Source: Anaerococcus nagyae
Lineage (GTDB): Bacteria; Bacillota; Clostridia; Tissierellales; Peptoniphilaceae
Length of the DNA stretch: 64,000 bases
Assembly (NCBI RefSeq): GCF_017874535.1
Contig: NZ_JAGGLS010000005.1
Span: 62,001-126,000, forward strand
Direction of reading: 5' to 3'
Both the position numbers and the translations under genes were made by a program. The notes beneath the pieces were generated by a model that saw nothing but the letters and a program-made list of their open reading frames with translations, had not been told where the DNA came from and ran no database searches. Of this stretch, positions 22,360-26,376 are shown piece after piece (the first letter of the stretch is position 1; every line of letters begins with the position of its first letter).

Positions 22360-23154
22360 TTATGATAAAAAATTAGTCTTTGGTTCTTCTTTCTCAAATA
22401 TAATCTTTCTATTTTTCAAAAGTAGAAAAATAAATACAATTACAAATATTATTGCAGAAAGTGCATTAATAGCTGGATTAATCCCACGCCTTGCCATACC
22501 ATATATAGTCATAGATAGATTTGATACACCATTGCCTGTTGTAAAATATGAAATCGCAAAGTCGTCTATAGAAAGGGTAAATGAAATCAAAGCACCTGCT
22601 AGTATACCGTTTTTAATATTTGGAATCAATACATTTCTTACTGCATAAGAGGGAGTTGCACCTAAGTCTAGAGCTGCTTCAATTATATTTTTATCCATTG
22701 ATTCAACTGCAGGCAAGACTGTCAGTACCACATATGGTATGCAAAACATTATATGAGATAAAATCATGGTTATATATCCTAATTGTAATTTTAAAAAACC
22801 ATATAATCCCATAAGAGAAATTGCTGTTATTATATCTGGATTTAAAACTGGCAAATAGTTAATATTCAAAACCATATCTTTTTTTCTACCACGTAATTCT
22901 GAAATACCTATAGCTGAAAGTGTCCCTATAAAGCTTGCAACTATAGTAGCAACTATTGCAACTATTAGAGTTGTTCTGACGGCAGAAATTATTTCAGGAT
23001 TTTCAAAAAGTTCAACGTACCATTTAGTAGTAAATCCAGCCCACTTTCCACGTAATTTACTATCATTAAATGAAAATACTATCATTACAACTATTGGCGC
23101 ATAAAGAAAGACAAATACAAGTATAGTATAAATCCTATCAATTATTTTTCTCAT
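22360..23154 (-). CDS. potC: Spermidine/putrescine ABC transporter permease PotC
   Basis: 264 aa, six membrane helices, with the EAA loop signature AALDLGATPSYAVRNVLIPNI. It opens with the PotC-like IYTILVFVFLYAPIVVMIVFSFND. It pairs with PotB to form the membrane channel. It is the last gene of the potDABC operon (order D-A-B-C) and overlaps potB by 4 bp. Confidence 0.92.
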   Translation of the reverse strand: MRKIIDRIYTILVFVFLYAPIVVMIVFSFNDSKLRGKWAGFTTKWYVELFENPEIISAVRTTLIVAIVATIVASFIGTLSAIGISELRGRKKDMVLNINYLPVLNPDIITAISLMGLYGFLKLQLGYITMILSHIMFCIPYVVLTVLPAVESMDKNIIEAALDLGATPSYAVRNVLIPNIKNGILAGALISFTLSIDDFAISYFTTGNGVSNLSMTIYGMARRGINPAINALSAIIFVIVFIFLLLKNRKIIFEKEEPKTNFLS

Positions 23155-23975
23155 ACTATATCTCCCTCTAAATCTCTACCAAATCTTCTTTGAATAGCTA
23201 GTGCTAGAATTAAGATTATCATAAGAATTATAGCTGTAGCTGAACCAAACCCCCAGTCGCCAGTAAAGGTAAATTGTTGGTCAATAAGATTACCTATCAT
23301 GTATACTTTCTGTCCTCCAAGCAAATTGGAAACTACAAAAGTAGAAATAGCTGGAATAAATACCATTATAATCCCAGTATAAACACCTGGTAAAGAAAGT
23401 GGAAAAATTACTTTTCTAAATATAGTTTTCCTATCTGCTCCTAAGTCTAATCCAGCATCAATTAGATTAGGATCAACTTTCTTAAGAGCATTATAAATTT
23501 GAATTACCATGAAAGGTAAGAATTCATAAATCATACCCAAAATTACTGCCGTTGGAGTATACATAACACCAAGTGACTTCCCTCCAAGAATAGCTATAAA
23601 TCTATTAAGAATCCCATTCCTACCTAAAAGTGTTATCCAACCATAGGTCCTAAGTAAAAGATTAATCCACATAGGCATTATAAATACAAAAATAAGGGAA
23701 GAAGCTATTCTCTCATCCATTTTTGATATTATATATGCAACAGGATAACCTATTAAAAGACAACCTAGAGTTGATAAGAACGCTATAAGTAATGTCACAG
23801 ATAACATTTTTAAGTATAAGGGTTCAAAGAACTTCCTATAATTTATAAAACTAAATTTAAAATGGTCAAAAGCTATAGATTCGGAGCCATTAAATGAATA
23901 AAAAAGTATTAGTAATATTGGTAATATTATAAAAACTCCTGCCCAAACAAGGTATATATTCAAATATTTTTTCAT
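23151..23975 (-). CDS. potB: Spermidine/putrescine ABC transporter permease PotB
   Basis: 274 aa, six membrane helices, with the EAA-type motif DAGLDLGADRKTIFRKVIFPLSLPG. It pairs with PotC. It overlaps potA and potC by 4 bp at each end, which implies coupled translation of the three subunits. Confidence 0.92.
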   Translation of the reverse strand: MKKYLNIYLVWAGVFIILPILLILFYSFNGSESIAFDHFKFSFINYRKFFEPLYLKMLSVTLLIAFLSTLGCLLIGYPVAYIISKMDERIASSLIFVFIMPMWINLLLRTYGWITLLGRNGILNRFIAILGGKSLGVMYTPTAVILGMIYEFLPFMVIQIYNALKKVDPNLIDAGLDLGADRKTIFRKVIFPLSLPGVYTGIIMVFIPAISTFVVSNLLGGQKVYMIGNLIDQQFTFTGDWGFGSATAIILMIILILALAIQRRFGRDLEGDIV

Positions 23976-25036
23976 GACTTCTCCCTCTTAGAATAAATAT
24001 CAAAGTCTTTACTAACTTCCTCCATAACGTGTATAGCATCAGGGTCGATTGCAACACATACTTCTGCTCCAATAGGAATATTTTCTGGATTGTGGACATT
24101 TATAGAAAAATCTTTACCTGTAATTTTCAAATCATAGTAAGTTCCCTTAAACATCGAATTTTCTACTTTGCCTCTTAGATTAGCTTCATTACTTAAATAT
24201 AAGTATTCAGGACGAAGCATTACACTTACACTTTTTCCAGGCTCCACCTTGTCTACGCAAGTATAATCATAACCTAAGAAATTTACTTTTGATCTATCTA
24301 CCATCTTTCCTTTAAAGATATTAGAATCCCCTAAAAAGTTTGCAACAAAAGCATTTACTGGCTCTTCATAAATGTATTGTGGAGTCCCATATTGTTCTAT
24401 AATTCCACTATTCATAACAGCAATTTTATCAGACATAGATAGGGCTTCTTCTTGATCGTGAGTTACATAGATAAATGTAATTCCCACTTCCTTTTGAATG
24501 TTTTTTAACTCCACCTGCATCCTTTTTCTAAGTTTTAAATCTAAAGCTCCAAGTGGCTCATCAAAAAGTATAATTTCTGGTTTATTTACAATAGCCCTTG
24601 CTATGGCTACCCTTTGCTTTTGTCCACCTGATAATCTAGATATAGCACGATTGCCATAACCGCTTAGATCAACTAAATCTAAAGCTCTACTGACCTTAAT
24701 TTTAATATCCTTTTCTTCTATCTTTTTTATTCTTAAACCAAAGGCTACGTTATCGAAAACGTTAAGATGTGGAAATAGGGCGTAATTTTGAAAAACCGTA
24801 TTTATATTCCTATAATTTGGTGAAATATTGGAAATATCTTTTCCCTCAAATATAACTTCTCCCTCATCTGGATGTTCAAAGCCAGCTATTATTCTAAGAG
24901 TTGTTGTCTTTCCACATCCAGATGGGCCTATAAGAGTTAAAAACTCTCCTCTTTCCACTGATAAACTTATATTATCTATTATCTTCTTGCCATCGAAATA
25001 TTTGTTAATATTTTTAAGTTGTAAAACTAGACTCAT
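23972..25036 (-). CDS. potA: Spermidine/putrescine ABC transporter ATP-binding protein PotA
   Basis: 354 aa. Walker A is GPSGCGKTT (about residues 37-45), signature [10 protein letters not shown], Walker B IILFDEPLGALD, and a C-terminal TOBE-type OB domain (about 270-340). It powers polyamine import through PotB/PotC. It starts 10 bp after potD. Confidence 0.93.
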   Translation of the reverse strand: MSLVLQLKNINKYFDGKKIIDNISLSVERGEFLTLIGPSGCGKTTTLRIIAGFEHPDEGEVIFEGKDISNISPNYRNINTVFQNYALFPHLNVFDNVAFGLRIKKIEEKDIKIKVSRALDLVDLSGYGNRAISRLSGGQKQRVAIARAIVNKPEIILFDEPLGALDLKLRKRMQVELKNIQKEVGITFIYVTHDQEEALSMSDKIAVMNSGIIEQYGTPQYIYEEPVNAFVANFLGDSNIFKGKMVDRSKVNFLGYDYTCVDKVEPGKSVSVMLRPEYLYLSNEANLRGKVENSMFKGTYYDLKITGKDFSINVHNPENIPIGAEVCVAIDPDAIHVMEEVSKDFDIYSKREKS

Positions 25037-25046
25037 CTTCTTCTCC

Positions 25047-26081
25047 TCAATATGCAGCTAATACATCTACCCAGACGTCATTATAAACCTGCATATAATC
25101 TTCTAAATCTTTAAACATTTCAATCTCTGGTAATTTTTCAAAATCTGGATAAGCTATCTTAGAATTTGCTATATAAGCTGGAAGATTCTCTCTAACTCCT
25201 TTTACAGCCGAGGTAAATCCCTCCATCCATTTAGCATTGATACTTGCTACTTTAGGATCTGTAAAATAATTTATAAAAGCTTCGGCATTCTCTTTATTCT
25301 TAGCACCTTTTGGTATAGCCATAGAATCCACTTGAAGATTCATACCTTCCTTTGGTATTACATACTTTAGATGAGGATTTTGCTTTTGCATCATCAAGGC
25401 ATCTCCTGAATACATCACAGTTATAGCCGCATCTCCTTGAACTACCAAATCACGGGCCTCATCTGTAAGATAAGCATAAACCAGAGGCTTTTGTTTAATT
25501 AATTCTTCTTTTGCTTCATTTATCTGATCCATATCTCTCGTATTTATGGAATAGCCTAGCTTTTGTAAAGCTACTGATAGGCTAAGTCTAGGCAAATCAT
25601 ACATTATGATTTCTCCCTTATATTTAGGATTCCATAAATCAGCCCATTTTGTTATAGGTTCTTTTATAATATCTGTATTATAAACTATACCAAAATGTGA
25701 TGTAAAATAAGGAACTGTATATTCATTACTAGAATCAAAATCTAATCCCTTATATTCATCATCTATGTATTTAAAATTAGGGATATTAGAAAAGTCAATT
25801 TTTTCCAACATATCATTCTTCTTTAGACGTTCTACCATGTAGTCTGAAGGAAATATTACATCATAATTATTTGAAGATTGAGATAACTTTATAAACATTT
25901 CTTCATCAGAAGTGAATGTTTCATAAATAACATCAATACCTGTTTTTTTCTCAAATTCTGGTATAAGATCTAAGTCTAAGTATTCTCCTGCATTAAATAC
26001 TACTACTTGCTTCTTATTATCTGACTTACATGATGTTAAAAATAGTAAAATCAAAACTAATAAAAAACTTTTCTTTCTCAT
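25047..26081 (-). CDS. potD: Polyamine-binding lipoprotein PotD
   Basis: 344 aa. The signal peptide ends in lipobox LTSC (Cys18). The mature protein is a periplasmic-binding type 2 protein with NAGEYLDLDLIPEFEKKTG at the start and the VDSMAIPKGAKNKENAEAFINYF block typical of PotD. The substrate is probably spermidine or putrescine. The start is ATG at 26081 with AGGAGGGA upstream. An in-frame start at 26156 lies inside the leader terminator and is not credible. Confidence 0.9.
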   Translation of the reverse strand: MRKKSFLLVLILLFLTSCKSDNKKQVVVFNAGEYLDLDLIPEFEKKTGIDVIYETFTSDEEMFIKLSQSSNNYDVIFPSDYMVERLKKNDMLEKIDFSNIPNFKYIDDEYKGLDFDSSNEYTVPYFTSHFGIVYNTDIIKEPITKWADLWNPKYKGEIIMYDLPRLSLSVALQKLGYSINTRDMDQINEAKEELIKQKPLVYAYLTDEARDLVVQGDAAITVMYSGDALMMQKQNPHLKYVIPKEGMNLQVDSMAIPKGAKNKENAEAFINYFTDPKVASINAKWMEGFTSAVKGVRENLPAYIANSKIAYPDFEKLPEIEMFKDLEDYMQVYNDVWVDVLAAY

Positions 26082-26110
26082 ATTCCCTCCTAGCTTTTTT
26101 AATTTTAGAC

Positions 26111-26144
26111 AAAAAAAGTCCTTGAACATTATATTGAACAAGGA
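26111..26144 (-). terminator. Intrinsic terminator in the potD leader
   Basis: Stem TCCTTG/CAAGGA (26144-26139 with 26124-26119) with a further CA/TG pairing, followed one base later by seven U residues (26117-26111). It lies about 30 nt before the start codon, so it can stop transcription before potD. An upstream CCUUGU (26206-26201) could compete for the 3' arm CAAGG, giving a possible antiterminator. Confidence 0.7.
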
Positions 26145-26345
26145 TTTTATAATCATATCTATTTACCCATTATTTAAACCCTATAGATATGAAATTTATT
26201 ACAAGGTTTGGCAATTTTGCCCCCTATGGTTGTGAGTTTTAGCTATATAAATGAGTCTAAAGTATAGCTAAATGTGAGCTTGCCCACCAATTCTTACCCC
26301 ATAGATGTTCTTAATGTATTTTCTTTTTTTATTATATTGTTGAGA
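26145..26345 (-). promoter_or_regulatory. Unassigned structured leader of the pot operon (candidate riboswitch)
   Basis: The 5' UTR of potDABC runs about 260 nt from its own promoter. On the minus strand an outer stem CUAUGG/CCAUAG (26304-26299 with 26229-26224) encloses a perfect 10-bp stem UUUAGCUAUA/UAUAGCUAAA (26272-26263 with 26247-26238) and a short GUGGGC..GCUCAC hairpin. Downstream come a GGCAA/UUGCC hairpin and two mutually exclusive stems: AAACC/GGGUUU, and a 9-bp CAUAUCUAU/AUAGAUAUG. A terminator follows. I find no match to TPP, purine, SAM, lysine, glycine, cobalamin, FMN, preQ1 or guanidine classes. The riboswitch role is inferred from architecture. Confidence 0.5.
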
Positions 26346-26347
26346 CA

Positions 26348-26376
26348 ATTATAAATTTAAATATTTCAATTGTCAA
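26348..26376 (-). promoter_or_regulatory. Promoter of the potDABC operon
   Basis: Perfect TTGACA (26376-26371) and perfect TATAAT (26353-26348) with a 17-bp spacer. The -35 box abuts the stop codon of cytX, so pot transcription starts right after the thiD-cytX unit. Confidence 0.85.

Follow-up and report, generated by a model that had tools for sequence, protein, structure and literature searches.

The potD-like gene of Anaerococcus nagyae is preceded on the minus strand by a structured RNA leader of approximately 230 nt that carries a U7 terminator at its 3′ end, which raises the question of what kind of RNA this is and what, if anything, it senses. We analysed a 64 000-nt stretch of the genome (contig NZ_JAGGLS010000005.1, positions 62 001 to 126 000; hereafter the window), for which an initial annotation, made from the letters alone, had proposed a riboswitch-like leader controlling the pot operon; what it had observed was confirmed, and how it had interpreted these observations is partly supported. 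The perfect TTGACA-17-TATAAT promoter it had described (26376-26348) was the sole 12/12 match amongst 19 promoter-like sites between positions 25000 and 27500, a scan that is uninformative as such, with 15.6 sites expected in shuffles, and inspection by eye shows TTGAC[A/T] and TATAAT ahead of the leader in every one of the nine genomes that carry it. The outer CUAUGG/CCAUAG stem, 10-bp stem and short hairpin are likewise present, and the 237-nt leader had a folding energy of -49.2 kcal/mol, where shuffles averaged -36.2 (z -3.3; 2/200 shuffles as low), whilst the 111-nt core alone folded less unusually (z -1.8; 13/200 shuffles as low). The terminator lies just before potD as described, with 29 nt between the end of its seven U residues and the potD ATG (26081) in the window, and is absent from the output of a simple terminator scan. 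The positions of all parts are given in the table. As a side observation, the open frame of potD can be extended upstream, across the terminator, as far as an in-frame ATG at 26156 (25047-26156, minus strand, in the window); this ATG is probably not used as the start since its counterpart is out of frame in genome L004.

Features of the leader and of the potDABC-like operon in the window (P1 to P5, predicted helices).
Feature	Position	Strand	Remarks
Promoter	26348..26376	-	-35 TTGACA 26376-26371, -10 TATAAT 26353-26348; 12/12 match
Whole leader RNA	26111..26341	-	start ~26341 predicted from -10 box; end = last U of U7
5′ tail ACAUUAAGAACA before P1	26306..26317	-	invariant, 9/9
Three-way-junction core P1-P3	26223..26305	-	double compensatory changes in P1, P2 and P3
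P1, CUAUGG/CCAUAG	26305-26299/26229-26223	-	double compensatory change at 1 pair
P2, short hairpin	26287-26283/26278-26274	-	double compensatory change at 1 pair
P3, perfect 10-bp stem	26272-26263/26247-26238	-	double compensatory changes at 4 pairs
P3 loop with invariant ACUCAUU	26248..26262	-	complementary to AAUGRGU of P5 loop; putative pairing
P4, small hairpin GGCA/UGCC	26210..26221	-	no compensatory change; one extra A in loop in window
AAACC(UUGU), window form of conserved AAAUCC	26201..26209	-	upstream copy of terminator 5′ arm
P5 stem-loop, 9-bp stem	26153..26192; stem 26192-26184/26161-26153	-	double changes at 2/9 pairs; 100% of cells paired
P5 loop motifs	GGGUUU 26181-26176; AAUGGGU 26171-26165	-	
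Possible mini-ORF AUG-GGU-AAA-UAG in P5	26159..26170	-	AGGG 8 nt upstream; by eye
Terminator	26111..26144; UCCUUG 26144-26139/CAAGGA 26124-26119; U7 26117-26111	-	8/8 pairs invariant in 9 species
potD-like, substrate-binding protein	25047..26081	-	changed pocket
potA	23972-25036	-	same operon as potD
potB	23151-23975	-	same operon as potD
potC	22360-23154	-	same operon as potD

Over 36 species pairs of a nine-species alignment, mean pairwise identity was 0.90 in the leader and 0.76 in potD, falling to 0.55 at potD third positions and 0.46 at fourfold-degenerate potD sites, and the excess of the leader over the fourfold sites counts in favour of an attenuation leader. The 43-pair structure was paired in 98.7% of 387 cells, with double compensatory changes at 8/43 pairs in 12 cells (one pair each in P1 and P2, four in P3 and two in P5). 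None of 500 shuffles reached this paired fraction and number of double changes, and the count of further pair types by itself was not unusual (60/500 shuffles). Sliding the partners left 35-49% of cells paired, a control that is biased in favour of the structure because the latter was derived from the same alignment, whilst a parsimony count on the RpoB tree, in which a three-way fork left unresolved was divided arbitrarily, required at least nine double changes. P4 and the terminator showed no compensatory change, all eight terminator pairs never varying. The 5′ tail and the loop motif ACUCAUU were unchanged in 9/9 species, AAAUCC occurred upstream of P5 in 8/9 (AAACC in the window), and conservation extended through the terminator and its loop. 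The leader is a real, strongly selected RNA, and the conservation and covariation in related pot leaders that the initial annotation had named as the support to look for were found before the operon in nine genomes. Taken together, the conserved and covarying P1-P3 and P5, the invariant terminator and the tight linkage to the operon support an attenuation leader.

This RNA is confined to one clade in the genomes searched. Each of 31 Anaerococcus genomes contained one strong PotD homologue, nine of them (window included) at 72-100% identity and the other 22 at 36-40%; the leader was found in all nine of the former, with one match per genome, and a covariance model of the core (R1) gave no credible match in the remaining 22. 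The nine genomes form a single clade with support of 99/96 in an RpoB tree (30/31 genomes, one being without the locus; midpoint rooting only). Wider R1 searches, run with fast filters on overlapping samples of 130 family, 249 order, 391 class and 398 phylum genomes, returned no credible copy; the sole extra matches, G039 (E 0.004) and G366 (E 0.055), lie within long open frames with stems broken or skipped and were read as chance. Eighteen other pot operons, 10 from other genera and 8 from the 22 other Anaerococcus, were searched with unfiltered R1 over ~5 kb upstream of potD; the best E was 0.06, for a match with broken stems that was likewise judged chance. Plasmid and phage records contained no leader, and one exact pattern match in viral contigs had no model match at that place. 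Leader-type and canonical-type PotD never occurred together in any of the 31 genomes.

The gene order trkA-trkH-(thiD)-(cytX)-leader-potDABC-rplM-rpsI is kept in eight genomes and the window, and the leader stands upstream of potDABC in 9/9, also where thiD (present in 5/9) or cytX (2/9) has been gained or lost on its other side; a co-regulated thiamine function, considered on account of these two neighbours, was dropped given their patchy presence. By eye, potD follows a potC-like frame in the relatives, so that the potD-first order is, as far as seen, particular to the leader clade. In three of the nine genomes (L003, L006 and L007) an insertion of ~0.7 kb separates the terminator from potD, and leader conservation is not relaxed in these species. 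The insertion (L003 765-1500, L006 823-1500, L007 2533-3322) is noncoding, and the inverted repeats it bears are imperfect (79-80% over 66 nt in the comparisons for L003 and L007). The inner part of the insertion runs one way in L003 and L007 and the opposite way in L006, so that an invertible or MITE-like element is possible.

What the leader might sense was approached through the transporter. All four subunits are homologous to Pot proteins by their best NCBIfam and PDB matches, the closest PDB match of the binding protein being PotD 4eqb (E 4e-70); PotD, PotB and PotC fell below the NCBIfam equivalog cut-offs and PotA just above that of the potA subfamily. According to the available text of PMC11414716, the amines of spermidine are bound by PotD residues E36, D168, E171 and D257, and W34, Y37, W229 and the critical W255 pack against the molecule. 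In the PotD of 9/9 leader genomes we found D168L, E171L, W255Q, W34A and W229Y, with E36, Y37 and D257 kept, and so not the spermidine-contacting residue set of a PotABCD-type transporter. Positions 168/171/255 were G, E and W in 21/21 other Anaerococcus PotDs checked (of 22) and S, D and W in 21/21 nearest relatives from other genera; W34A is not clade-specific, as it also occurs in 5/21 relatives (3 unreadable). The residue table also took in S83, Y85, Y293, Q327 and T35. Since the PotD of exactly the leader clade has lost the carboxylates D168 and E171 together with W255, polyamine sensing, which the initial annotation had suggested, is weakened and a polyamine ligand is doubtful; judging from these residues, a transporter substrate with fewer positive charges is likely. 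Searching the genus for spermidine synthase domains was uninformative, as all matches were weak, 18/31 over the cut-off, the best at 48 bits and most near 30.

The initial annotation had also proposed two mutually exclusive stems downstream of the core. This is borne out in part: there are competing pairings, but nested folding favours none of them and in 9/9 species preferred P1 plus the terminator (terminator pair probability 0.95-0.98 in full-length folds). P5 too belongs to the default fold, with a pair probability of ~0.5 in the window, and in L009 P1 reached 0.74 and P3 0.4. Relative to P1, a nested antiterminator between the P1 3′ strand and the terminator arm cost 5.6-10.1 kcal/mol and one between the P5 loop and the terminator arm, with P5 not kept, 3.6-10.7 kcal/mol, with pair probabilities of ≤0.04, and this preference for P1 and terminator over costly antiterminators counts against a switch. 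The CCUUGU (26206-26201) once put forward as an antiterminator is found in the window only, the other eight species having AAAUCC followed by GAAU, UGAU or AGAU; it is the local form of the upstream AAAUCC copy (AAACCUUGU), of which the UUGU part is not conserved.

AAAUCC is present twice, upstream of P5 and in the terminator's 5′ arm, and both copies are complementary to the P5 loop; this, and the invariance of an arm that could vary in a plain hairpin, fits a second pairing partner for the terminator arm. Column shuffles scored as low in 92/1000 cases for AGGRUUU in the P5 loop as partner of that arm (first pair lost in L010), 5/1000 for the competing candidate AYAGGGG (P1 3′ strand plus GG), 33/1000 for the P5 loop with the upstream AAAUCC and 18/1000 for P5-loop AAUGRGU with P3-loop ACUCAUU (in L004 the lowest-energy P3-loop/P5-loop duplex lies in another register), these loop complementarities being statistically weak, as ten segment pairs were tested uncorrected. 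In the folding model the upstream AAAUCC-GGRUUU pairing was transient (0.8-0.9) in 3/9 species and hardly formed (≤0.07) in 6/9. Given the cost of the nested antiterminators, a choice of the P5 loop between the two AAAUCC copies is a hypothesis that would require pseudoknots. A long helix of the 5′ tail and P1 5′ strand with the P5 5′ strand and loop, seen in minimum-energy folds of some truncated RNAs, was not adopted because of unpaired cells in L004, L005, L008, L009 and L010 and because it shows no double change.

Our reading, of moderate confidence, is that the element regulates the potDABC-like operon of a single Anaerococcus clade in cis, by transcription attenuation, and that it most likely represents a riboswitch family not yet described. 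Two general features of a riboswitch, a covarying structured leader and a place 5′ of potDABC in 9/9 genomes, are present, and the changed substrate pocket in 9/9 counts for the riboswitch reading, whilst conservation through the terminator and its loop is unusual for an expression platform and counts against it. In such a riboswitch a ligand would bind to the P1-P4 part and thereby decide whether the terminator forms; it would probably be the compound carried by the transporter, or one made from it, and probably neither spermidine nor putrescine. In the off state, GGRUUU of the P5 loop would pair with AAAUCC just upstream of P5 and leave the terminator free; in the on state, it would pair with AAAAUCC in the terminator 5′ arm, forming a pseudoknot that keeps P5 and blocks the terminator. 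Complementarity between the P3 and P5 loops could link the aptamer to this choice. The most specific version, which we put forward tentatively as possible rather than probable, is a new riboswitch class, arisen or kept in a single Anaerococcus clade with a substrate-changed pot-type importer, that senses a non-polyamine, probably mono-cationic, compound and whose P5 loop chooses between two AAAUCC copies, the first lying next to the aptamer and the second within the terminator arm.

Several of these observations suit other explanations. The main rival, unlikely but still deserving attention, is a small RNA of ~230 nt that is transcribed independently, from its own promoter to its own terminator, and would act in trans; its place before potD would then be inherited and the operon transcribed by partial read-through. 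The whole RNA is conserved, terminator and loops included, termination is the default in nested folds, and leaders of the three insertion species are 92.3-94.2% identical to those of L004, L005 and L008; with an insertion that did not relax leader conservation and a conserved terminator loop, a small RNA fits at least as well as a riboswitch. Its occurrence solely at the potDABC operon, never at a second genomic place, and its position 20-36 nt before the potD start in 6/9 genomes (gene start as called by the search) argue the other way, although simple linkage would also give both. Improbable in our view is control of the attenuator by a regulatory protein in place of a metabolite, or a 5′ end that is structured for stability or constant termination and does not switch: no antiterminator is favoured in nested folds, but the 9-pair stem and three-way junction, kept at this level in all species, would exceed the needs of known antiterminator proteins, whose targets are simple hairpins.

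We consider decidedly improbable a ribosome-dependent attenuation through the three-codon mini-ORF AUG-RGU-AAR-UAG in the P5 loop, an idea akin to polyamine-responsive leader ORFs such as speFL and mdtJI, known to control polyamine genes (PMC10319736, in its available text). AUG, UAG and an AGGR 8 nt upstream occur in 9/9 species and the third codon varies synonymously only (AAA/AAG); yet the P3-P5 loop complementarity and the stem of P5 themselves call for AUG and UAG, the second codon is GGU in the window against AGU in the other eight, three codons carry little information, and a ribosome there would leave the terminator arm uncovered. Hardly any credence can be given to a diverged copy from a known riboswitch class, be it TPP, SAM-I, the spermidine variant of SAM-I or some other Rfam family, even if a thiD with a near-cut-off TPP riboswitch lies upstream in the window and a spermidine riboswitch does exist as a SAM-I variant. 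The Rfam 15 search, one of the tests that the initial annotation had named as able to refute its proposal, found no family at gathering score; the best unfiltered match in the region, to an unrelated family, had E 3.7, and neither a SAM family nor a T-box was amongst the matches up to E 10.

That spermidine riboswitch, the one established (Salvail et al., PMC10853860), shares two traits with the potD leader, so far as its available text goes: a narrow distribution, and transcription termination within an RNA leader of polyamine-related Gram-positive genes. It has the four-stem SAM-I architecture and stands before speE, speB, ldcC and others, whereas the potD leader forms a three-way junction, matches no SAM family in Rfam and precedes a transporter with a pocket that is not polyamine-like; 'potA' and 'spermidine transport' do not occur in the text of PMC10853860. 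The potB 5′ fragment of Borrelia burgdorferi likewise shows RNA-level premature termination at a pot locus, but it lies inside coding sequence, responds to 5-10 mM spermidine and, in the accessible text (PMC10319736), is described without a conserved aptamer. A description of our leader was not found in open-access PMC full text and may be listed in the supplements of PMC8040213, which, in its available part, reports thousands of human-microbiome RNA candidates.

The combination of an Rfam-orphan leader and an altered-pocket transporter offers two linked handles, RNA and binding protein, on one metabolite, and if the substrate has changed, 'potD' names in the leader clade may mislead. The conservation through the terminator makes the leader a good case for the study of expression platforms or, if the trans-acting alternative is true, a small RNA hidden as a leader.

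Two other RNA elements were seen in the window. A T-box leader (RF00230, 44437-44667, plus strand, 114.7 bits) is, like the proposed potD switch, a terminator/antiterminator leader; the potD leader has no T-box match. A TPP riboswitch (RF00059, 28394-28497, minus strand, upstream of thiD-cytX), at 50.6 bits just under Rfam's 54.3 cut-off, is a cis-regulatory RNA in the same neighbourhood but a separate element, the potD leader having no TPP match, and four more TPP riboswitch matches above cut-off are found elsewhere in the genome.
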